Source: Cryomorphaceae bacterium (GTDB lineage Bacteria > Bacteroidota > Bacteroidia > Flavobacteriales_D > Crocinitomicaceae). Taken from it: DNA of 39,858 nt. How positions within the stretch are numbered: position 1 is the stretch's first letter; each line of letters opens with the position of its first letter. Made by a program: the position numbers and the translations under genes. The DNA lies in assembly GCA_021300505.1 (NCBI GenBank), contig JAJTDQ010000006.1, positions 1 to 39,858 on the forward strand, in the 5' to 3' direction. The notes beneath the pieces were generated by a model, which had not been told where the DNA came from, ran no database searches, and saw only the letters and a list, made by a program, of their open reading frames with translations. Of the stretch, positions 2,429-31,986 are shown piece by piece.

Positions 2429-2811
2429 ACTACAATTCACATTCAGGTAACATTGAACTTTAAAAATTTCGTAATTTCGCGAACCCGAGAAACCAATACC
2501 TTACAGTGTTAGTAGGGTATTCTGTTTCTTTAGGTTATGAACGAGTTAGGTAAGAATTTCCGAATTATTATATTCGGTTTGGAGTCTCTATCTTATGTGT
2601 GACTTCGAATAACCCAACTGTTTTCATTTGACTAATTGTCTCTAAATCAAATTTTTAATTGGTTTTTCACCTGTTTAAGTGAATTTAGTCGTAAGTAAGC
2701 GACAAATAACCGAATCGAAGGAATCGTTTGTGGGAACTTTGTAATGTCGAATTCAGGGAACCACTTCTGAAGGGAAACAGGATCATTATTCAACTATTTA
2801 AATTTTCACAG
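2429..2811. other. 383-base intergenic region with small inverted repeats
   Basis: No credible gene was found between the porin and the first SSB. Two dyads are visible. AGAAAC..ATACC (2488-2500) pairs with GGTAT..GTTTCT (2516-2529). CCGAAT (2560-2565) pairs with ATTCGG (2572-2577) around a 6-base loop. Neither is followed by a convincing T-run. A GAACTTTG near 2740 is one base off the TAnnTTTG consensus and could be the SSB promoter. The region could hold a long leader or a small RNA, but nothing identifies one. Confidence 0.4.
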
Positions 2812-3159
2812 ATGAACAGCTTAAGAAACAAGGTGAATTTAATTGGGCGTCTCGGAGCACAGCCAGAAATTTCCAGTTTAGAATCAGGTCGCATGCTTGC
2901 GCGATTTACACTTGCAACAAATGAGAGGTATAAGGATAAAAACGAAGTGTGGCAGGACAATACGCAATGGCATACCATCAATGCTTGGGGAAAGGTCGCT
3001 GAAAAGGCACAGAAATCTCTCGATAAAGGAGTTGAGGTGGTTATAGAGGGAAAATTGGTGCAGCAATCCTATGAGACAAAAGGGGGTGAAAAGCGCTACT
3101 CCACAGTTGTTGAAGCATCCGACTTTATGCTAATAAGTCCGAAATCAGCAAAAGAATAA
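2812..3159 (+). CDS. single-stranded DNA-binding protein, first of three tandem paralogues
   Basis: A 115-residue OB-fold protein of the bacterial SSB family, which coats single-stranded DNA in the cytosol. SSB hallmarks are the opening NKVNLIGRLG, the ARFTLATNE strand, the TQWHTINAWGKVAE segment containing the conserved W-H..W-G core, and the VVIEGKL strand. The frame is open back to 2728, but alignment to the family start favours ATG 2812. It ends in PKSAKE and lacks the acidic DDDxPF tail that housekeeping SSBs use to recruit partners. It is therefore probably an accessory SSB, with the main copy elsewhere. Two further SSB-like genes follow at gaps of 31 and 28 bases. Confidence 0.92.
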   Translation: MNSLRNKVNLIGRLGAQPEISSLESGRMLARFTLATNERYKDKNEVWQDNTQWHTINAWGKVAEKAQKSLDKGVEVVIEGKLVQQSYETKGGEKRYSTVVEASDFMLISPKSAKE

Positions 3160-3190
3160 AAGATAAACGAATTGATATAAATGGATCTCT

Positions 3191-3502
3191 ATGAATCATG
3201 TCAATTTGATCGGGAAGGTTTGTTCCACGCCAAGGATTTTAGAAATGGAGAATGGTCGAAGAATTGCGCGTTTCACCATGATGACTGTAGAGTGCTACTT
3301 GGATGAAAAAGCGGTAACTAGAACGCGCTGTCATTGGCATCGTCTTATGGCATGGGGTAACTGGGTCAGGATATGCGAAGAACACGTTGTCGATGGCACT
3401 GAATTAGCGATTCAAGGAAGCCTAGTGACGCGCTTTTACTCTACCGGAAAAACAAGGCGAATAGCCGCTGAAGTTGAAGTCAATGACATGACTATCTTAT
3501 AG
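3191..3502 (+). CDS. divergent SSB-like OB-fold protein, second of three
   Basis: A 103-residue protein that aligns along its length with the genes on both sides: NHVNLIGKV at the N-terminus, IARFTMMT, CHWHRLMAWGNW in place of the usual WH..WGK core, and LAIQGSLVTR for the last OB strand. It is the most divergent of the three and contains three cysteines. There is no linker and no acidic C-terminal tail; the protein stops right after the OB fold. Start ATG 3191 is fixed by the conserved N-terminus. It is very probably co-transcribed with its neighbours and likely binds single-stranded DNA, although that is inferred from the fold only. Confidence 0.88.
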   Translation: MNHVNLIGKVCSTPRILEMENGRRIARFTMMTVECYLDEKAVTRTRCHWHRLMAWGNWVRICEEHVVDGTELAIQGSLVTRFYSTGKTRRIAAEVEVNDMTIL

Positions 3503-3530
3503 ATTTCATTGTATGAATAAATAGACAACG

Positions 3531-3851
3531 ATGATGAGAAACCACATTACATTGATCGGCCGCGTAGGTACATATGCGGAGATTACAAAGTTCGATAACG
3601 GAAGTAAGGTTGCACGATTCAGTATGTCAACAGAACGAAGTTATCGTGCATCCGATGGCAAGATAAAACAAGATATTGAATGGCACAGGCTTTTCGCGTG
3701 GGGAGATATGGCTCAATTCATCGAAAGTTATGCGGAGAAGGGTAAAAAAATCGCGATACATGGTAGACTGGTAAAGCGTACATTTCTAACGAAAGATGGT
3801 GCTCGACGAAGTGTGACGGAGGTGGAGGTTAAGAATTTTATGGGCATATAA
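3531..3851 (+). CDS. SSB-like OB-fold protein, third of three
   Basis: A 106-residue SSB paralogue: NHITLIGRVG, ARFSMSTER, EWHRLFAWGDMA, IAIHGRLVKRTF and a final EVEVKNFMGI. Like the two preceding genes it ends at the OB core without the partner-binding acidic tail. The start is at one of two adjacent ATGs, 3531 or 3534. A strong rho-independent terminator begins 34 bases after the stop, so this is the last gene of the three-SSB unit. Specific roles in competence, recombination or mobile-DNA handling are possible but not shown. Confidence 0.9.
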   Translation: MMRNHITLIGRVGTYAEITKFDNGSKVARFSMSTERSYRASDGKIKQDIEWHRLFAWGDMAQFIESYAEKGKKIAIHGRLVKRTFLTKDGARRSVTEVEVKNFMGI

Positions 3852-4079: not shown

Positions 4080-5510
4080 CTAGTAATTCCTGCGGTCGTT
4101 CCACAACTGACTTCGGATGCCAATCATTGGGATATACGAATACCTGCCAAATGCACTATCGTATCGGAACTGTTGCTCGACGAAAGCGTTTAAATTCCCT
4201 TGTTTGGAAATTAGGTAAGAAACAGTGAGTAATGTTCTAAACCCATTGTTGCCTAGTCCCTGACCTATGTGATGGCCATAATTCGTTGTTCTAAATGTAT
4301 AAGGAACATAGATATCACCACCATAGCTGCTCCCATCTTTGTCATATCCACGGAGGAAGTAACTCACAAACAAATTGCCACTCCACCGGTCTTTTTTAAC
4401 CTTAACCTCGCCCAAAAGTTCCATGAAATTAGAACCGTATGGATGTGCTAGTGTCATATCTTGGTTACCATAATTCTGCCCATTGTTGAGGTGAGAATAA
4501 GTAAACGGTCGCACAGCATTGTATTCGAGTCGATAAAACCAGAGTGCTTTGTGCGCTTCAATATTTCCTTTCACACCTATTTGTCCACCATACTTGTTGG
4601 CCCACCATCCTGTTTTGTTTTTAATTTCAGTTAAGAAAAACTCATCTAAGATAAACTGACCATAAATTGTGTGTTTTTTGATGTGGGCGCTGAAGCTTAC
4701 TCCCAAAAGCACATTGTCCGAAGAGCCAAGCGCGTATTCCTGAGGACGATAGAAGATTACAGGATTGAGGTATTCAACTTCATATCCTCTGCGTAAAGCC
4801 GTGTCTTTAGGTTGGAAAATGACAGTTTCAAAAACACCAATATTCAACCATTTCGCTGCATTAAAACTAATGTGATGTGTTGCGCCATTTTTCAAAAACC
4901 AATTGTCATTTTTCTGTTCTCTAAAGAATTGATACAACACCGTATATTCCAAGCGCCAAAACTTCGCACGAATTTGTCCGAATGGATAAGGCTTACCATA
5001 ATCACTTAAAAACAGCGAACGCGATCCTTCACCGATAAAGTTGTGGTCTAGTCCAACTTGGAAATTAAATATTGAATTTGGTGTGTATCCAATTCTTGCA
5101 CGCACATCTGTATATAACGTATTGTTTTTGAGTGGGCTAGAAAAATACGTTTTTGGTGCGTAGATAGAATCACTCAACCCAATCCCCTCGATGGCACCAA
5201 CGCGAAAAGCCCACTTATCCTTAATGGAACTTTCAAGAAGAATTCCAGCGCCAACGCGGTATTGCGCGAACCCTCCATAGCGGAATCCAGCTTCACCAAT
5301 TGATGTTATAGATAGAAAAGAGGAATCTTTGTGCAGTTGACGTATTCCCATTGAATGTTGACGAATCAAAGGCAAAACACCAGTATGTGTCTTCAGTGTG
5401 CGTGGCAATACTGCCTGTTCACCTGGTTGTTCTTCGACTACGAAGTTGATGCCACTTTGTCCAAAACCAAAGTGACAGATGAATAAAACTAGGGTGAGTA
5501 TCCACTTCAT
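4080..5510 (-). CDS. Wzi/RemB-like outer-membrane barrel protein (second of pair)
   Basis: A 476-residue secreted beta-barrel candidate with a signal peptide (MKWILTLVLFICHFGFGQ). A central FIGEGSRSLFLSDYG segment is the signature shared by Bacteroidota capsule-assembly Wzi-like and gliding-motility RemB-like outer-membrane proteins. Strands rich in Tyr, Trp and Asn fill the rest. It resembles the upstream gene throughout and is a diverged paralogue. Its ATG overlaps the upstream stop codon by one base (TGATG), so translation is probably coupled. It stops at 4080 with a C-terminal RRNY and shows no T9SS signal. The role may be polysaccharide attachment or gliding; the sequence does not decide. 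Confidence 0.72.
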   Translation of the reverse strand: MKWILTLVLFICHFGFGQSGINFVVEEQPGEQAVLPRTLKTHTGVLPLIRQHSMGIRQLHKDSSFLSITSIGEAGFRYGGFAQYRVGAGILLESSIKDKWAFRVGAIEGIGLSDSIYAPKTYFSSPLKNNTLYTDVRARIGYTPNSIFNFQVGLDHNFIGEGSRSLFLSDYGKPYPFGQIRAKFWRLEYTVLYQFFREQKNDNWFLKNGATHHISFNAAKWLNIGVFETVIFQPKDTALRRGYEVEYLNPVIFYRPQEYALGSSDNVLLGVSFSAHIKKHTIYGQFILDEFFLTEIKNKTGWWANKYGGQIGVKGNIEAHKALWFYRLEYNAVRPFTYSHLNNGQNYGNQDMTLAHPYGSNFMELLGEVKVKKDRWSGNLFVSYFLRGYDKDGSSYGGDIYVPYTFRTTNYGHHIGQGLGNNGFRTLLTVSYLISKQGNLNAFVEQQFRYDSAFGRYSYIPMIGIRSQLWNDRRNY

Positions 5511-7057
5511 CAGAAATCCGAATAACGATTGTTAATTGCTGTCCGCAGCCCGAAATTCAACGCACTCGTCATGCTCGGATCTGCTGCTGAACCATAACGA
5601 AAATCTCCCGAAACAAAGAAACACAAGTTCATCTTTCGGTTGACCCGGTAACCACATTCGACATGATGTAAAATGATGGTGCCGTCAATGGCGAGCTGCT
5701 CTTTCGGCACGGAAAGTAACGCTGTTGACCTGTAATCTTTAAGAAGGTAAAGGTTTGTTCGGAAACCAGCATACCATCGTTTTTTATCATATGAATAACG
5801 CAGTATTATTTCGTGAAAACTATTTCCTTTTGGATGCGCCATAGCAACGTTTCCATGGGTGTAATTCAGTCTGATGTTTGATGCAACGTACATGTCTTTT
5901 GTGGCATAGTTGTATTCGACTTGAATCATGGAAAAGCATTTCTTCCCGAAATAGTTGCGGTAACCCACTTGAGCCGCGAAATGGGAGAGCGAAAAGTTGG
6001 AAACCACAAATTGTCCATAAAATCGTTGGTTTTCACTCGCGACAAGTGAGAAATTCAATCCAAGCAATTGGCTTGCCTGACTATCTTTTACGATTAAGCC
6101 ATTTATTACAGGAATTGGGTTAAAATAGAGAGGATTGATCGGGCTAGATGTGATTGAATCACCTCTATACCACACGACACTTTCAAACAAACTGATGGCC
6201 AACTTATCGGTAGCGCGAAAAGTCAGGTAATTGACAGAGGTACCTTTTGTTTCGTAATATGCTTCGACTGTATTGTACACTGCTTTTCGCATGAAATTCA
6301 TCGATCGCATTCGTAAGTAATTGAATTCCCAATGTGTATTGATCTTGTAATCTAACCTCACGAACGGAGTTGGCAATGCATTGTCGGACAATAGCACCGA
6401 ACGGTAGCCATCTCCAATAAATTGCGAAGTGTTTCCGGCGCTTATTGCCAGTTGTTGCCAAGGTCTATAAACGATATTTCCCACAGCATAGGCATAATCA
6501 AAGGCATCTTCTTTAAACGGCTTGGATCGAGCACTTCCGGGAATAACTGCATTTTGTGTGGTGTAGATTCCAGTTGTTTGATTAGGGTATAGCTCACCAA
6601 TAGATTGATAAAAGGAGGATTCATAACGCGTAAATCGTGCTTGATTTTCATAAATCGACGTACTAAAGGAAAAGTTCTTCATTAAATCTCCCTCGATAAA
6701 AATTCCACGTGTATTTTGAAATAGTCGTTTTTTAGCAGTATCGGAAAAATCTTTTCCAATTGAGAAATCGACAATAGGTGAAATGGATAGGTGATAATCA
6801 TCTCCCTTGAATTCAAATAGATGTTGTTTAAAGATCCGCTCACCACCATCGTAATACTGAACACTTGAATCGCGTAACCATCGGTCTGAGTGCACATCAC
6901 CCTCCAGAACGGGCAAAAATCCTGAGCCTGTGGAGTAGTGACTATTTTTCGTGTTGAACAGTTGGTCCTTGTAAAAGGAATGCAATAGCACGGTGTTCTG
7001 TTGTGAATAGCTGAAATGAACACCAAGGAAAAGCAATATGACAATCAGAATTCTCAT
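5510..7057 (-). CDS. Wzi/RemB-like outer-membrane barrel protein (first of pair)
   Basis: A 515-residue protein with a clear signal peptide (MRILIVILLFLGVHFSYSQ) followed by many amphipathic strands. The motif FIGDGYRSVLLSD is characteristic of the Wzi-like/RemB-like group in Flavobacteria. A paralogue follows directly with a one-base TGATG overlap. The cysQ gene precedes it with only two bases between stop and start, so all three appear to be one transcript running leftwards. The assignment rests on this motif and the barrel-like composition. RemB (gliding) versus Wzi (capsule) function cannot be separated here. Confidence 0.72.
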   Translation of the reverse strand: MRILIVILLFLGVHFSYSQQNTVLLHSFYKDQLFNTKNSHYSTGSGFLPVLEGDVHSDRWLRDSSVQYYDGGERIFKQHLFEFKGDDYHLSISPIVDFSIGKDFSDTAKKRLFQNTRGIFIEGDLMKNFSFSTSIYENQARFTRYESSFYQSIGELYPNQTTGIYTTQNAVIPGSARSKPFKEDAFDYAYAVGNIVYRPWQQLAISAGNTSQFIGDGYRSVLLSDNALPTPFVRLDYKINTHWEFNYLRMRSMNFMRKAVYNTVEAYYETKGTSVNYLTFRATDKLAISLFESVVWYRGDSITSSPINPLYFNPIPVINGLIVKDSQASQLLGLNFSLVASENQRFYGQFVVSNFSLSHFAAQVGYRNYFGKKCFSMIQVEYNYATKDMYVASNIRLNYTHGNVAMAHPKGNSFHEIILRYSYDKKRWYAGFRTNLYLLKDYRSTALLSVPKEQLAIDGTIILHHVECGYRVNRKMNLCFFVSGDFRYGSAADPSMTSALNFGLRTAINNRYSDF

Positions 7058-18038: not shown

Positions 18039-18121
18039 TTTATCGCATTAATTCTTGTAAGTCTTCTTTAATTTTCTTAAGTTTCCTTACTTTTTTGTGA
18101 TTTATCCCAAAAGACACTACT

Positions 18122-20467
18122 ATGAAATCAAAAGCGTTTTACTTTTTCCTTGTTCTGTGTTGGATAACACCTTTCTATGCGCAGCAGAGCAATAAAACTC
18201 TCCTTGGATTCAATAGCCCTTTATCCAAAGACCAGACAGACAGCAGTAAACAAGTCAACTGGATGGAGGTGATTGAAGAACGTTCTATTTTTTCGTCATC
18301 GTTTAGAAGCGAAGATGGCCAAGTGAAGATAGAATACAGCAAGACGCCAATCAACTATTTCAACAAGGAAAATAAATTGATTCCCATTGATCCAACTTTA
18401 ACGGAATTATCACAGAACTCTTCAGTTTGGGCTGCTCTAAATCAACCTTACCCTACATACTTGTATCACAAAGGTTCGTTTGCAATCACCTTGGGCGGAA
18501 ATTCTTCGATGCGTGTTGGAGAACATTTCGTTGTCAACGGTAAAGAAATCGAAGGCGTGCGCGTTCAAGTATCCCAGAATCGGGTGTCTCAGCATTACAA
18601 TGAGCTTGGATTCAGTCGTATCCTCGATTTTTTTGAAAACGCAGTGGAGTACTCCTATATTTTACGTCAAGCTCCATCATCGTTGAGCGAGAACCTCACC
18701 TTCGATGAGCGTTTGGATTTACCGTCGGGTTTCACCGCTTCATTGGAAGAAGGCTTATTAAAGATACGAAATACTGAAAAGCAAGTGGTTGCGACATTTC
18801 ATGCTCCCTTGTGTTATGATGCTGAAAAGGAATGGATGCTTGGTGAGTATTCGTTGATTGAAAAAGACAATGAGCGTTACGTGCGATTGAGTGTTCCTTC
18901 CGCATGGCTCAATGCTTCTAACCGCCATTATCCTGTTGTTGTTGATCCAATTGTACAAGGTCCAACAACGGTGTGGAATGGTGGCGCTATGCCCTCTTGT
19001 ATCTTACCTAACTACAATATAGATAGTATTCAGTGTGTCATTCCAGCTGGAGTTACGGTTACAGGTCTTTATGTAACTGGAAGTTTTTATGCGGATCCCT
19101 TCACAACGGCAACGATGAGTCAAGGTGAGATGAAATACAGCACGACGTGTGGAATCTCCCAAGCCTTTACGATTACGGGCGCAACAGCGGCATTGCCAGG
19201 TACGGCTTACCTCGATTCTTTCAATATTCTGTCGCCTTTGATGTGCTGCTTTCCAGAATCGTGCAATGCACAAAGCTTCTATCTGCGCATGCACCTCGGG
19301 AGAACAGGACCTGGAACGGGTTGTAACACGACTTACATTCGCTACGATCCAATTACGACTTTGTGGCCATTCAAAGCTGTTGTTGTCGGACGCACTGCAG
19401 AGCCGTACGGAAGTAAATGGAATGTCCCTGCAACACCAATCTGCTCGAATCAATGCACAGTAACGGGTACTGCCTATGTGTATTATGGTGTGGCGCCCTA
19501 CACGTATACGCATCCATGGTCAACTGAGGTGGTAACCCAAGGACAGAATAACGGTTGTGGAACAGGATCAAATAGTTTTCAGTTCACCTTAAACATTCCT
19601 GATTGTCCAACCTATTGTGATACATCATCTTCACTGGTAGTTCCACCTCCTGTTATTACTGACGCTTGTGGATATGTAGTTATGGGAATGCCCTCTGATG
19701 CAGTACCGTTGAAAATTACACCACAAGTGGATGTCATCATGGATACTTTGCTTTGTTCGGGCGCACCTTCAACCATCGTACTCAATTCATGTGTTCCGAA
19801 CGGAATTGTCTCTTGGTCAGGAAATGGTCAAAGTGGAACAGGAACTTTTGCAGATACAATTTACAATACAACGAATACAATAGCGGTGATTCCGTATTCA
19901 GCGGTAACTTCCGAAAATGGCTGTATATCAGATACTGTTAATGTCAATCTCTATGTGGAGCCACTTCCAACAGCTATTTTTTCTTCGATACCGAATCCGG
20001 CAATAGTAGCCATTCCTGTTGATTTTATAGACCAGTCTCAGAATTACAACGGTGAATTGAATTATACATGGACACTGGATGGTCAGCCTTTTTCAACAGA
20101 CCAGAATACTGCGAACACATTTTTTAATCCGGGTGAATATACCATGTGTTTAGCAGTTGAATCCAACACCTTATGTGCTGACACTGTTTGCCAACTTATT
20201 CAAGTTGTACCCGCGACAGTTATTCCACCAAATGTGATTACGGCAAACAATGACCAGATCAATGATTTATTAGAGTTCAAATACTTAGAGTTTTATCCCA
20301 ACAATTCACTCGTTGTTTTGAACCGTTGGGGAAATGTGGTATTTGAAAAAGAAGGTTATTCGAATGATTGGAATGGTGATAATTTGAATGCCGGAACGTA
20401 TTTCTACACACTCATTGTCAACGATGGTGAGCAAGAATACAAAGGCTTTATTCAAATTGTGCGTTAA
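18122..20467 (+). CDS. large secreted protein with PKD domain and gliding-motility-type (T9SS type B) C-terminal domain
   Basis: A 781-residue exported protein with a signal peptide ending FYAQQ. A roughly 290-residue N-terminal region ends in HYPVVVDPIVQ, a phrase common ahead of large surface/RHS-like proteins. A cysteine-rich middle (about 300-560) has many CxxxC-type pairs, e.g. LMCCFPESCN and CPTYCD. A PKD-like domain (about 620-690; VDFIDQSQNYNGELNYTWTLDG) follows. The C-terminal VITANNDQINDLLEF..VVLNRWGNVVFEKEGYSNDWNG..AGTYFYTL is the gliding-motility-associated C-terminal (CHU_C) domain, the type B T9SS signal. It is presumably displayed on or released from the cell surface. No enzymatic motif was found. 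Confidence 0.88.
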   Translation: MKSKAFYFFLVLCWITPFYAQQSNKTLLGFNSPLSKDQTDSSKQVNWMEVIEERSIFSSSFRSEDGQVKIEYSKTPINYFNKENKLIPIDPTLTELSQNSSVWAALNQPYPTYLYHKGSFAITLGGNSSMRVGEHFVVNGKEIEGVRVQVSQNRVSQHYNELGFSRILDFFENAVEYSYILRQAPSSLSENLTFDERLDLPSGFTASLEEGLLKIRNTEKQVVATFHAPLCYDAEKEWMLGEYSLIEKDNERYVRLSVPSAWLNASNRHYPVVVDPIVQGPTTVWNGGAMPSCILPNYNIDSIQCVIPAGVTVTGLYVTGSFYADPFTTATMSQGEMKYSTTCGISQAFTITGATAALPGTAYLDSFNILSPLMCCFPESCNAQSFYLRMHLGRTGPGTGCNTTYIRYDPITTLWPFKAVVVGRTAEPYGSKWNVPATPICSNQCTVTGTAYVYYGVAPYTYTHPWSTEVVTQGQNNGCGTGSNSFQFTLNIPDCPTYCDTSSSLVVPPPVITDACGYVVMGMPSDAVPLKITPQVDVIMDTLLCSGAPSTIVLNSCVPNGIVSWSGNGQSGTGTFADTIYNTTNTIAVIPYSAVTSENGCISDTVNVNLYVEPLPTAIFSSIPNPAIVAIPVDFIDQSQNYNGELNYTWTLDGQPFSTDQNTANTFFNPGEYTMCLAVESNTLCADTVCQLIQVVPATVIPPNVITANNDQINDLLEFKYLEFYPNNSLVVLNRWGNVVFEKEGYSNDWNGDNLNAGTYFYTLIVNDGEQEYKGFIQIVR

Positions 20468-29148: not shown

Positions 29149-31986
29149 ATGAAGTTTACAGACAAACTTGCGCAGTACATTGTTGATCAGCATCTTGACC
29201 TAGACCACTTAACAATTATTCTTCCCTCAGAGCGCGCAAAGAAATATATCGCTGCATCGCTTTTTCGAGCTTATGGAAAGCCTGTGTTGGCACCTGAAAT
29301 GATTACGATTGATCGTTGGGTGAAAGGGCTCTCGGATAAAACGGTAATTGACCGCACCAGAGCATTGATTCGACTCTTTAAAATTCAACTGATTGATCCA
29401 CCAGGTGATAAGGACCGTTCCTTCGATGAGTTTATGTCGTGGGGAAACATCTTGCTCTCCGATTTTGATGAGATAGACCGCTACCTATTAGAAACGAAAA
29501 CAGTATTTACCAACCTGAAGGCGGTTAGAGAACTAGAGAATTGGGAGGTGGATAAATGGAGCTTTGAAGCACCTGTTTTGACGGAGGGGCAAAAGCGATT
29601 TTTGGAGTTTTGGGAGAAATTGCCTGATTATTACACCCGGCTCAATGAAGAACTTGCCAAAGATGGGGTGTGTTATCCTGGAAAGGCCTACCGTGAATTG
29701 GCAGAACAAATTGACCGTGTATTTAAACTCGATCCAAAACGACAGTTCATTTTTGCTGGATTCAATGCCCTTTCATCGGCAGAGATGGCCATCATGAAGC
29801 AGCTACACAAATTGGGAAGAGCGCACATCCTCATTGATGCAGATGCCTATTACCTGAAGAATGATGCCCATGAGGCAGGACGATTTTTGCGGCGTTTTAT
29901 GCACGATCTCGATGTGAAAGAACTTCCTTTTGTGTGTAACGACATGTCTACGGCTGCGAAAAAAATTGAGATCATCGAATGTCCACAAATTACGGGACAG
30001 GTAAAAGCTGCAGCGACAATCCTCAATCAAATTCCATCCTCAGAAATGAGTGAAACGTTGGTTTTATTGGCCGACGAAAGTTTGATAGCACCCTTGGTAA
30101 AAAACCTCCCAAAACACATAGGCAAGGCGAACATTACACTTGGACTTCCACTGCGAAACTCTGCATTGCGTACTTGGGTGGATTTGATTTTTTCCATTCA
30201 AGAAAATAAAGTGCGATTTAAAACGAAGTCCATCTATTTTCAAGATTTACAACGCTTTTGGAATCATCCATTTACAGTTGCACTTCTCGATGAACAGGAA
30301 AAACAAACCATTATCGGACTGGAGCTTCAAATCATTGAGCGTAATACCATATTCTTAAACCCGGATAAACTCATTACAGGAGCTACATCGGCAGCGATTC
30401 TTCCACTTTTGACCACAGATTGGGACGGTGATTGGCTGAAAGGATTGAAAACGATCCGACAGATGAACCAGTCCCTGTTTAAAAACATGGGCAACGAAGA
30501 TGCATTTGAAAAAGCAGTTGTTGAGGCCTTCGACCAAGCTTTACAGGAGTTGGAAAACATTCTTTCAGAAGGAATTCCTGACATGTCGATCAAGAGTTTT
30601 AGACACCTTTTTCAGCAGCATTGGAATACAAAAAGCATTGCTTACCATGGGAATCCCCTTCAAGGACTTCAGATTATGGGACTCTTGGAAACACGTTTGC
30701 TCGACTTTAAAAACATGGTCATTCTTGGAATGAATGAAGGGAATATGCCTCCAACAAATCCTATTCAAACATTGATCCCGATGGACTTAAGAAATTATTT
30801 TGAATTGCCAGTACCAAGGGATAAACAAGGGTTATTTGCACATCACTTTTACCGTCTGATGCACGCTGCAGAGAATGTTTGGGTGACCTACACAAGCGCT
30901 CAAGAAAGTGTTGGATCGAATGAGGCGAGTCGCTATTTGTTGCAGCTTGAGCTGGAGTTGTCTCGCCTGAATCCAAACATTACTTTGGAGCGAAAATTCT
31001 ACGCAGTTCCAAATACGGGCTCAACGACGGAGGTGAATTCAATTATTCCAAAAACACCTGAAATTCTTGCGCGGATGGAGGAGTTGTTCGAGCGCTCTAT
31101 TTCGGCATCTGCTCTGAATAAATACTTGAAATGTCCTCTCGACTATTACTACCGGTATGTGATGGATTTTGGCGAGGAATCGGTTGTCGAGGAAGAGGTG
31201 GAAACCAATACATTTGGAACCTTTATACACAATGTACTCGAAGAGTTGTTTACACCATTTGCGCGCCACGATAAGGCAGGAAATAAGGTCGATCCGCAAC
31301 CCTCTAATTTGACTACCCAGGATATTGACGCGATGTTGATGAAATACCCTGAGTTAATCCAAAGGGAATTTATGACGCATTTCGATCAGGATCCATCTTC
31401 ATTTTCTACTGGGAAAAATTTATTGTCCTATGAAATGGCGCTTGAACTTACAAAGCGTATTTTAAAGAATGAAAAATCGTTTTTGAAAAGTCAAACTGAA
31501 CCTGTGTTTATCGAATTTCTTGAACTAGAACTTGCTGCTACTTTAGATTTGGACATTCAAGGAAAGACGATGCCTATTCATATGAAAGGGTACGTTGATC
31601 GAATTGACTCAGTAGGAGGTAAAATACGTATTATTGACTACAAGTCCGGGAAAACAGGCATGAAGGATGTCACAATTAAATGCCCTGAACCGGATTTATC
31701 GAATCTTGTCGCTGTAATGACTGCAGCTAAACACAATCTTCAATTGGTGATGTACAGTTATTTGTATCATGATCGTTTTGGAAGTTATCCAGATGAGGTA
31801 AGTATTTATTCGTTAGTGAACATTAGGGATGGACTTTTTCCATTACATGGCGCCCTAAGCATCGAAGAGAGTGCTCAATTATTTCCAGAATTCGTAAGGC
31901 AAGTGGTGGATGAGCTTTTCGATCCTGAGGTTCCTTTTGAGCATATCCCAGGTCAGTTCGTGAGTTTCTGTAAATACTGCGAATAA
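29149..31986 (+). CDS. AddB-like PD-(D/E)xK nuclease/inactive helicase
   Basis: A 945-residue protein. The N-terminal two-thirds resembles an UvrD-type helicase fold without a clear P-loop, with LTIILPSERAKKY at the start. The C-terminal RecB-like nuclease domain has YVDRID (815-820) and IIDYKSGKTG with Asp830 and Lys832. An Fe-S-type cysteine at 662 (LKCPLDYYY) pairs with CKYC (941, 944) at the end. Such proteins process double-strand breaks for RecA loading, usually with an AddA partner; none is in this window. The protein ends at CKYCE, before the fourth cysteine expected in an AddB-type 4Fe-4S motif. It follows the AAA/DUF4143 gene by 5 bases. Confidence 0.87.
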   Translation: MKFTDKLAQYIVDQHLDLDHLTIILPSERAKKYIAASLFRAYGKPVLAPEMITIDRWVKGLSDKTVIDRTRALIRLFKIQLIDPPGDKDRSFDEFMSWGNILLSDFDEIDRYLLETKTVFTNLKAVRELENWEVDKWSFEAPVLTEGQKRFLEFWEKLPDYYTRLNEELAKDGVCYPGKAYRELAEQIDRVFKLDPKRQFIFAGFNALSSAEMAIMKQLHKLGRAHILIDADAYYLKNDAHEAGRFLRRFMHDLDVKELPFVCNDMSTAAKKIEIIECPQITGQVKAAATILNQIPSSEMSETLVLLADESLIAPLVKNLPKHIGKANITLGLPLRNSALRTWVDLIFSIQENKVRFKTKSIYFQDLQRFWNHPFTVALLDEQEKQTIIGLELQIIERNTIFLNPDKLITGATSAAILPLLTTDWDGDWLKGLKTIRQMNQSLFKNMGNEDAFEKAVVEAFDQALQELENILSEGIPDMSIKSFRHLFQQHWNTKSIAYHGNPLQGLQIMGLLETRLLDFKNMVILGMNEGNMPPTNPIQTLIPMDLRNYFELPVPRDKQGLFAHHFYRLMHAAENVWVTYTSAQESVGSNEASRYLLQLELELSRLNPNITLERKFYAVPNTGSTTEVNSIIPKTPEILARMEELFERSISASALNKYLKCPLDYYYRYVMDFGEESVVEEEVETNTFGTFIHNVLEELFTPFARHDKAGNKVDPQPSNLTTQDIDAMLMKYPELIQREFMTHFDQDPSSFSTGKNLLSYEMALELTKRILKNEKSFLKSQTEPVFIEFLELELAATLDLDIQGKTMPIHMKGYVDRIDSVGGKIRIIDYKSGKTGMKDVTIKCPEPDLSNLVAVMTAAKHNLQLVMYSYLYHDRFGSYPDEVSIYSLVNIRDGLFPLHGALSIEESAQLFPEFVRQVVDELFDPEVPFEHIPGQFVSFCKYCE

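Follow-up and report, generated by a model that had tools for sequence, protein, structure and literature searches.

Bacteria are usually described as having one SSB, sometimes two, and eukaryotic RPA consists of three different OB-fold gene products that bind ssDNA and work together. In the portions of the literature drawn on here, single tail-less accessory SSBs are already known (PMC5945547, PMC3991886). The SsbB of Bacillus subtilis, a tail-less protein of 113 aa, is described there as specialised for transformational recombination (PMC5945547), and competence SsbB makes a reservoir of ssDNA even without its last seven residues (PMC3128108). In B. subtilis and Streptococcus pneumoniae this protein is an extra SSB besides a tailed canonical one, as at the locus reported here, but it is the product of a single gene with demonstrated competence induction (PMC5945547, PMC3128108), and the pneumococcal protein, as portrayed in those portions, also differs from ours in keeping its C-terminal tail. 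In Staphylococcus aureus, whose third SSB is SaSsbC, two of the three SSBs in the genome likewise lack the acidic tail; in the section cited the three have separate locus numbers (SAAV0334, SAAV0835 and SAAV2152) and form no tandem operon (PMC5945547). The flavobacterium Psychroflexus torquis has a short, tail-less SSB of 102 aa, a single additional gene set aside by the authors, and section 5 of that paper reports no promoter or array for it (PMC3991886). This protein is probably of the same accessory type as those described below. Among the literature matches listed, which cover subscription journals and preprints poorly, we found no description of a three-gene SSB operon, of its promoter, or of accessory SSB regulation in Bacteroidota.

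We analysed a window of 39,858 nt, the whole stretch of DNA presented above, in which three SSB genes, here called ssb A, B and C, lie in tandem at 2812-3851. The features of the locus are the following:

2654-2741, forward strand: array promoter region with CG-centred repeats about 10.4 bp apart (family profile)
2738-2741, forward strand: TTTG element closing the promoter region, anchor of the family alignment
2742-2811, forward strand: 5′ leader with a hairpin (arms 2752-2758 and 2765-2771)
2812-3159, forward strand: ssb A, tail-less SSB paralogue, 115 aa, PF00436 at 105 bits
3191-3502, forward strand: ssb B, diverged middle paralogue, 103 aa, PF00436 at 63 bits
3531-3851, forward strand: ssb C, tail-less SSB paralogue, 106 aa, PF00436 at 81 bits
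3880-3910, forward strand: terminator-like hairpin 3′ of the operon, 14 pairs (7 G-C) followed by a T run

An earlier note on this DNA had described three tandem SSB genes of these lengths with gaps of about 30 bases, a terminator behind them and no acidic tails, and each of these points was borne out. All three proteins exceed the cut-off of the Pfam SSB model PF00436 (26 bits). The gaps are 31 nt between A and B and 28 nt between B and C, and a terminator-like hairpin follows the array; the whole window holds two such sites, against 1.1 expected from shuffling. From this layout, A, B and C are expected to be co-transcribed. The PF00436 match spans residues 6-105 of 115 in A, 1-102 of 103 in B and 4-103 of 106 in C, and because it fills nearly the whole protein there is no room for a linker and a DDDLPF-type tail. 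The linker and acidic tail of canonical replicative SSBs are thus missing from all three, which stop at the OB fold; B, for example, ends in ..EVEVNDMTIL.

The source genome (2.4 Mb, 85% complete) contains five SSB genes, namely A, B, C, a canonical one and a divergent fifth. The separate tailed SSB that the earlier note had proposed to look for is the canonical gene on contig C1, whose frame ends in ..PDRDDVVPF. The fifth, on contig C55 (positions 30844-31143, locus L005), is divergent and has the acidic end DEDDF. A similar divergent SSB at 18057-18611 of locus L083 also has the C-terminus DEDDF; genes of this acidic-ended kind score 50-60 bits to PF00436 and have matches in most genomes of the genus. 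The array is real and, as had been claimed, unusual: a three-gene tail-less set, with a tailed SSB elsewhere in the genome. It shares with SsbB the presence of short extra SSBs alongside the canonical one, and separate regulation would be a second feature common to both. Competence SsbB is the nearest tested precedent for the array.

The AlphaFold2 model of B is an SSB OB fold (pLDDT 92.3) that resembles SSBs in the PDB, with entry 5odn as its best match (TM 0.90). At the positions corresponding to 54, 60 and 88 of E. coli SSB, aromatic residues occupy 58/58, 58/58 and 58/58 A sequences, 53/57, 57/57 and 57/57 B sequences, and 56/57, 57/57 and 56/57 C sequences. An aromatic at position 40 is found in all 58 A and in 54/57 B, and in only 24/57 C, so that the set of four is present in A and B and partly present in C. 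Judged from their sequences, A, B and C are OB-fold SSB domains that keep most of the ssDNA-stacking aromatics. The C proteins are strongly basic: over the aligned OB columns, the median pI is 10.05 for C, 9.14 for A, 8.96 for B and 7.92 for canonical SSBs. In known SSBs the dimer interface is built by strand beta-1, where each paralogue here has preferences of its own: position 7 is H in 56/57 B, K in 47/58 A and K in 21/21 canonical sequences, and position 9 is N in 57/57 B, S in 38/58 A, T in 49/57 C and I in 21/21 canonical sequences. Such differences would fit specific pairing among the paralogues.

The array is widespread among relatives, which the earlier note had named as the point to check. 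In the genus, a complete tandem A-B-C is present in 22 of 26 genomes, the source genome included, a recurrence beyond chance. Two others (G010 and G014) carry A and B only, at a contig end, and two (G022 and G025) show no array; G025 is 69% complete and its promoter sits at its contig end, so its array was probably cut off. The B type was found in 85 of 120 genomes sampled from the family (calls at 125 bits or more, next match 101.9) and in 162 of 399 genomes sampled from the order (E<=1e-28), all 162 within the family. A scan of named genomes with B, in which the best 80 of 165 relatives were used, also led to Crocinitomicaceae: the named carriers comprise one isolate, Taishania pollutisoli, the rest being MAGs or uncultured records under the titles Crocinitomicaceae, Fluviicola, Brumimicrobium or Lishizhenia; among the MAG titles, Actinomyces viscosus and some others are probable mislabels. 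The order A-B-C on one strand was found at 78 of these best 80 loci, the other two being cut by contig ends. Because the loci were picked via B, this count says that B has A and C as neighbours and is not a prevalence across genomes. The array is dispensable: G069, G102, G109 and G130, which are 94-99% complete, lack it and have a single SSB match each.

In a quick tree of 255 SSB rows over 108 columns, where columns are few and deep forks unresolved, B requires one label change (a set of 58 rows with the outlying B-like L318, support 98), C one (76, with a 50-row core at 95), A two and the canonical type one (99). This suggests, as far as such a tree can tell, that A, B and C split before the radiation of the family. 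For A, 102 pairs within the genus give a median dN/dS of 0.126; the corresponding medians are 0.156 for B (74 pairs) and 0.084 for C (48 pairs). Lengths were compared at 72 measurable loci out of 80 (two cut and six without a start call were left out): B has 103 or 104 aa in 71 of them and 107 in one, A ranges over 112-130 aa and C over 95-110 aa. The three genes are thus paralogues of old standing that purifying selection maintains. Certain B-less genera of the family carry tandems of two or three short A-like SSBs, and at L295 in G147, from another family of the order, there is a tandem of three A-like short SSBs, again without B. Since B-less genera and G147 have tandems of their own, accessory SSBs are prone to tandem duplication, and the G147 tandem suggests that the accessory ssb was expanded in this way more than once.

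These data also bear on the view that the array is a local decaying duplication. The middle copy is indeed diverged, as the earlier note remarked, with the lowest PF00436 score of the three, yet it is conserved in the family. In the source lineage, represented by the window and L078, dN/dS is 0.166 for B, 0.040 for A and 0.046 for C, so that B evolves about four times faster than A and C and still well below 1. Decay was to be recognised, according to that note, by absence from relatives together with relaxed selection on the middle copy, and the reverse is observed: B is present in most of the family genomes sampled, its median dN/dS is low and its length is nearly invariant. Conservation in genus and family together with low dN/dS rules this view out, leaving it a negligible chance.

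The strongest feature of the locus, overlooked by the earlier reader, is a promoter with phased repeats that is common to the array and to single accessory ssb genes. The region, conserved upstream of A throughout the family, is closed by TTTG, which we take to be the Bacteroidota-type -7 element and whose invariance in the alignment is by construction, since it served as the anchor. In the family profile, whose table includes two false rows, CG peaks lie at -75, -65, -55, -44, -34 and -23 relative to the CAACTTTG start. The source copy is degenerate upstream and has CG at only three of these six positions (-44, -34 and -23). Among CG pairs 8-53 bp apart in 55 non-redundant arrays, 388/470 are in 10.4-bp phase, where shuffles average 27.5% and reach 33.2% at most. 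The same phasing is seen upstream of 31 accessory ssb genes outside A-B-C arrays, which were picked by Pfam/SSB matches independently of the promoter (283/529, 53.5%; shuffles 27.9%, maximum 33.8%). Upstream of 79 canonical ssb genes, taken as a control, the figure is 113/396 (28.5%; shuffles 28.1%, with 79 of 200 shuffles as high).

A promoter profile, R1, was built from 52 sequences. It scores 46.1 bits at the source array, and the runner-up site in the same genome reaches 14.1. Of the 26 genomes of the genus, 24 show a single strong site (46-85 bits; the training set includes many of these contigs); the two misses are G022, which has no array, and G024, whose array begins at a contig end. 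No second strong site was found in the 26 genus genomes, where the other matches listed stay at or below 19.7 bits and the best of them is the same site on the opposite strand, so no regulation shared with competence or other genes was seen. R1 reaches at least 20 bits at 25 of another 32 accessory-SSB loci, of which 20 come from other families of the order and 12 are B-less ones of the same family (a contig end truncates one of the seven misses). It does so too at 4/4 additional B-less arrays, and stays at or below 11.9 bits at 12/12 canonical ssb loci. In a phylum sample of 247 genomes, 206 have no match at E<=1e-5 and 41 do, with 43 matches in total (three in G599, one in each of the others). 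A short SSB gene adjoins 41 of these 43, the source array included, and the two exceptions are a contig end (L368) and an integrase in G599; thus, in this sample, the promoter marks accessory ssb genes. Since the same promoter region precedes single accessory ssb genes elsewhere, the triplet most likely arose from one such gene by tandem duplication. Among promoter matches in the class, which we infer to be Bacteroidia, the accessory SSBs at L384, L387, L397, L399 and L401 retain an LPF or MPF motif at the terminus, so the tail has not been lost throughout the wider group.

Between promoter and start codon, a hairpin within the first 42 nt of the transcript is present in 43 of 55 non-redundant family leaders, compared with 27% in shuffles (maximum 47%), and is formed by 35 different 5′ arms. 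The mean folding z of these first 42 nt in the family arrays is -1.43, and that of the last 36 nt before the ATG is +0.33. The source leader has the arms and a folding z of 0.07, no better than shuffles. Beyond the family arrays the hairpin is not clearly enriched (20/55, 36.4%, versus 22.8% in shuffles, the highest shuffle also giving 36.4%). Rfam had no match in the source stretch (E<=1) and none in 10 loci at gathering threshold.

The operon is chromosomal and stands alone. When flanks were clustered over 84 loci, no conserved same-strand adjacent gene emerged, the commonest occurring in seven. The commonest flank of all is a Wzi-like pair on the opposite strand downstream of the array (42/84 loci). 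In the source stretch this pair lies at 4080-7057, opposite in strand to the array; we take its genes to be of the Wzi-like, capsule-assembly type, and Pfam gave no match for the first of them. A role in phage defence, which the earlier note had put forward, gained no support, since there are no conserved neighbours and PADLOC returned no family for A, B or C at E<=0.01 (the scan took these proteins, and flanks were assessed by the neighbour clustering). A scan of viral sequences with B gave one weak, partial match (31%) among 35 pattern matches, and for A identity across the aligned stretch is 36-48% among the best 80 of 140 viral relatives. With only weak or distant viral relatives of A and B, a viral origin is unsupported. 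As for competence and the DNA uptake that the earlier note also suggested, ComEC is present in 5/7 and DprA in 7/7 array-less genomes (G022, G069, G086, G102, G109, G130 and G060), and each in 9/10 array-bearing ones; five genomes of unsettled array status (G112, G242, G253, G289 and G296), all with both genes, were left out. No co-loss with the array was seen between the 7 array-less and 10 array-bearing genomes, a comparison of low power because ComEC and DprA are near-universal.

A candidate regulator of accessory ssb genes is a treble-clef-like protein (CxxC..CxxxC motif), conserved and 114-131 aa long. Of 60 accessory-SSB loci outside arrays, 19 have its gene near ssb (among L365-L407 and L295-L314). 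This gene is divergent from ssb in 17 of the 19, several with the promoter between them (for example L367, L377 and L314), and at 3 of 30 integrase loci it is divergent from the integrase. Three members were scanned against Pfam and NCBIfam, and no model reached its cut-off. In the source genome the gene is on another contig than the array (C111:23468-23812), and in 13 of 19 loci, 16 of the 19 being from the family, it adjoins not the array but an ATPase-like gene, presumably of MoxR type. Treating it as a co-occurring regulator proved uninformative: it has a match in 72 of 80 genomes (three weak and partial), array-less ones included, and array-bearing G010 and G015 have none. As a regulator of accessory ssb, the treble-clef protein is a lead.

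We tentatively favour, while holding it to be somewhat short of probable, a reading in which the stand-alone A-B-C operon serves conditional ssDNA coating without partner recruitment, in the manner of SsbB. A regulator would bind the phased repeats and switch on A, B and C under certain conditions; their products would coat ssDNA without calling in the partners for replication and repair, which the tail of the canonical SSB recruits, and, because the coating proteins recruit no tail-dependent partners, the coated ssDNA may be stored or protected, as by competence-type SsbB. The three copies could share out the work through different binding modes or mixed oligomers. Counting for this reading are the conserved order, the separate A, B and C groups, purifying selection, tail-lessness, constrained length, the kept aromatics, the tailed SSB elsewhere and a promoter found at accessory but not canonical ssb. 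Counting against it are the single promoter site per genome, the retention of ComEC and DprA, the dispensability of the array and the position 40 aromatic in so few C sequences, together with the model of natural transformation in the flavobacterium Riemerella in which, in the portion cited, DprA binds the incoming ssDNA (PMC8459023).

The fixed order on one strand and the beta-1 residues distinct at positions 7 and 9 could also mean that A, B and C form an obligate hetero-oligomer (hetero-oligomers had been suggested in the earlier note), an RPA analogue in which beta-1 pairing gives mixed tetramers acting as one ssDNA-coating machine. We consider this unlikely, though the best placed of the alternatives: B evolves faster than its partners in the source lineage, some B-less relatives in the family hold only two tandem paralogues, and a read-through fusion model of A-B-C gave three domains without confident packing (pTM 0.39), which weighs little given its shallow alignment and short linkers. 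If the hetero-oligomer existed, the array would resemble RPA in having three OB-fold gene products acting jointly, and would differ in that its three are all PF00436 paralogues, with a common subunit architecture not evident. The copies might instead be housekeeping variants for dosage or temperature that add ssDNA-binding capacity in replication. Their intact OB fold, most of its aromatics retained, and the fact that the array can be lost would agree with this, but there is no tail for joining the replisome, the promoter is the operon's own and absent at 12/12 canonical loci, and constraint differs by paralogue among copies that are not identical, all of which makes the idea improbable. Slightly more improbable, in our estimate, is a composite picture in which co-inherited tail-less SSBs form an RPA-like heteromer, with a phased operator and a dedicated class regulator, possibly the treble-clef protein, for a non-replicative ssDNA process. 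We assign the least weight of these to the proposal that the operon aids ssDNA steps of integrases or mobile elements, such as integron-like recombination, with a regulator in common. In genus g22 an integron-like tyrosine integrase adjoins the array in 5/19 loci (L438, L439, L449, L452 and L454) and integrase fragments occur in two more (L442 and L445), the G599 integrase (L395) has five phased-repeat copies upstream (R1 29.4 bits), and the treble-clef gene is divergent both from accessory ssb and from some integrases. However, the g22 loci were chosen after two integrase cases had already been seen, a translated search found no such integrase at the 80 named array loci, and these integrases are common (122 of 295 genomes) and prefer hot spots. 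Against the integron integrase model the G599 protein reaches 194.8 bits, under the cut-off of 265. Integrases next to arrays may reflect an insertion hot spot or a functional link. At L438 there are, besides the integrase, ORFs that we take to be ORF6N-like and ParD/ParE-like.

Under the favoured reading of conditional coating, a family with three distinct conserved tail-less SSBs separates ssDNA coating from partner recruitment, and the array is a natural system for asking what a tail-less SSB does. The class-wide promoter makes this question testable, as its repeats can be used as bait for the regulator, and finding out what induces the operon would show which process it serves. Should the three proteins form mixed oligomers, bacteria would have their own equivalent of heteromeric ssDNA-binding complexes.

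Some arrays depart from the common layout. The gap between B and C is 388-500 nt in L066, L069, L072 and L075, possibly through an insertion or an extra element. Two B-type genes per genome occur in G119, G126, G129 and G327; in each of the first three, one of the two B loci was inspected (L327-L329), and at L329 the C gene is truncated.
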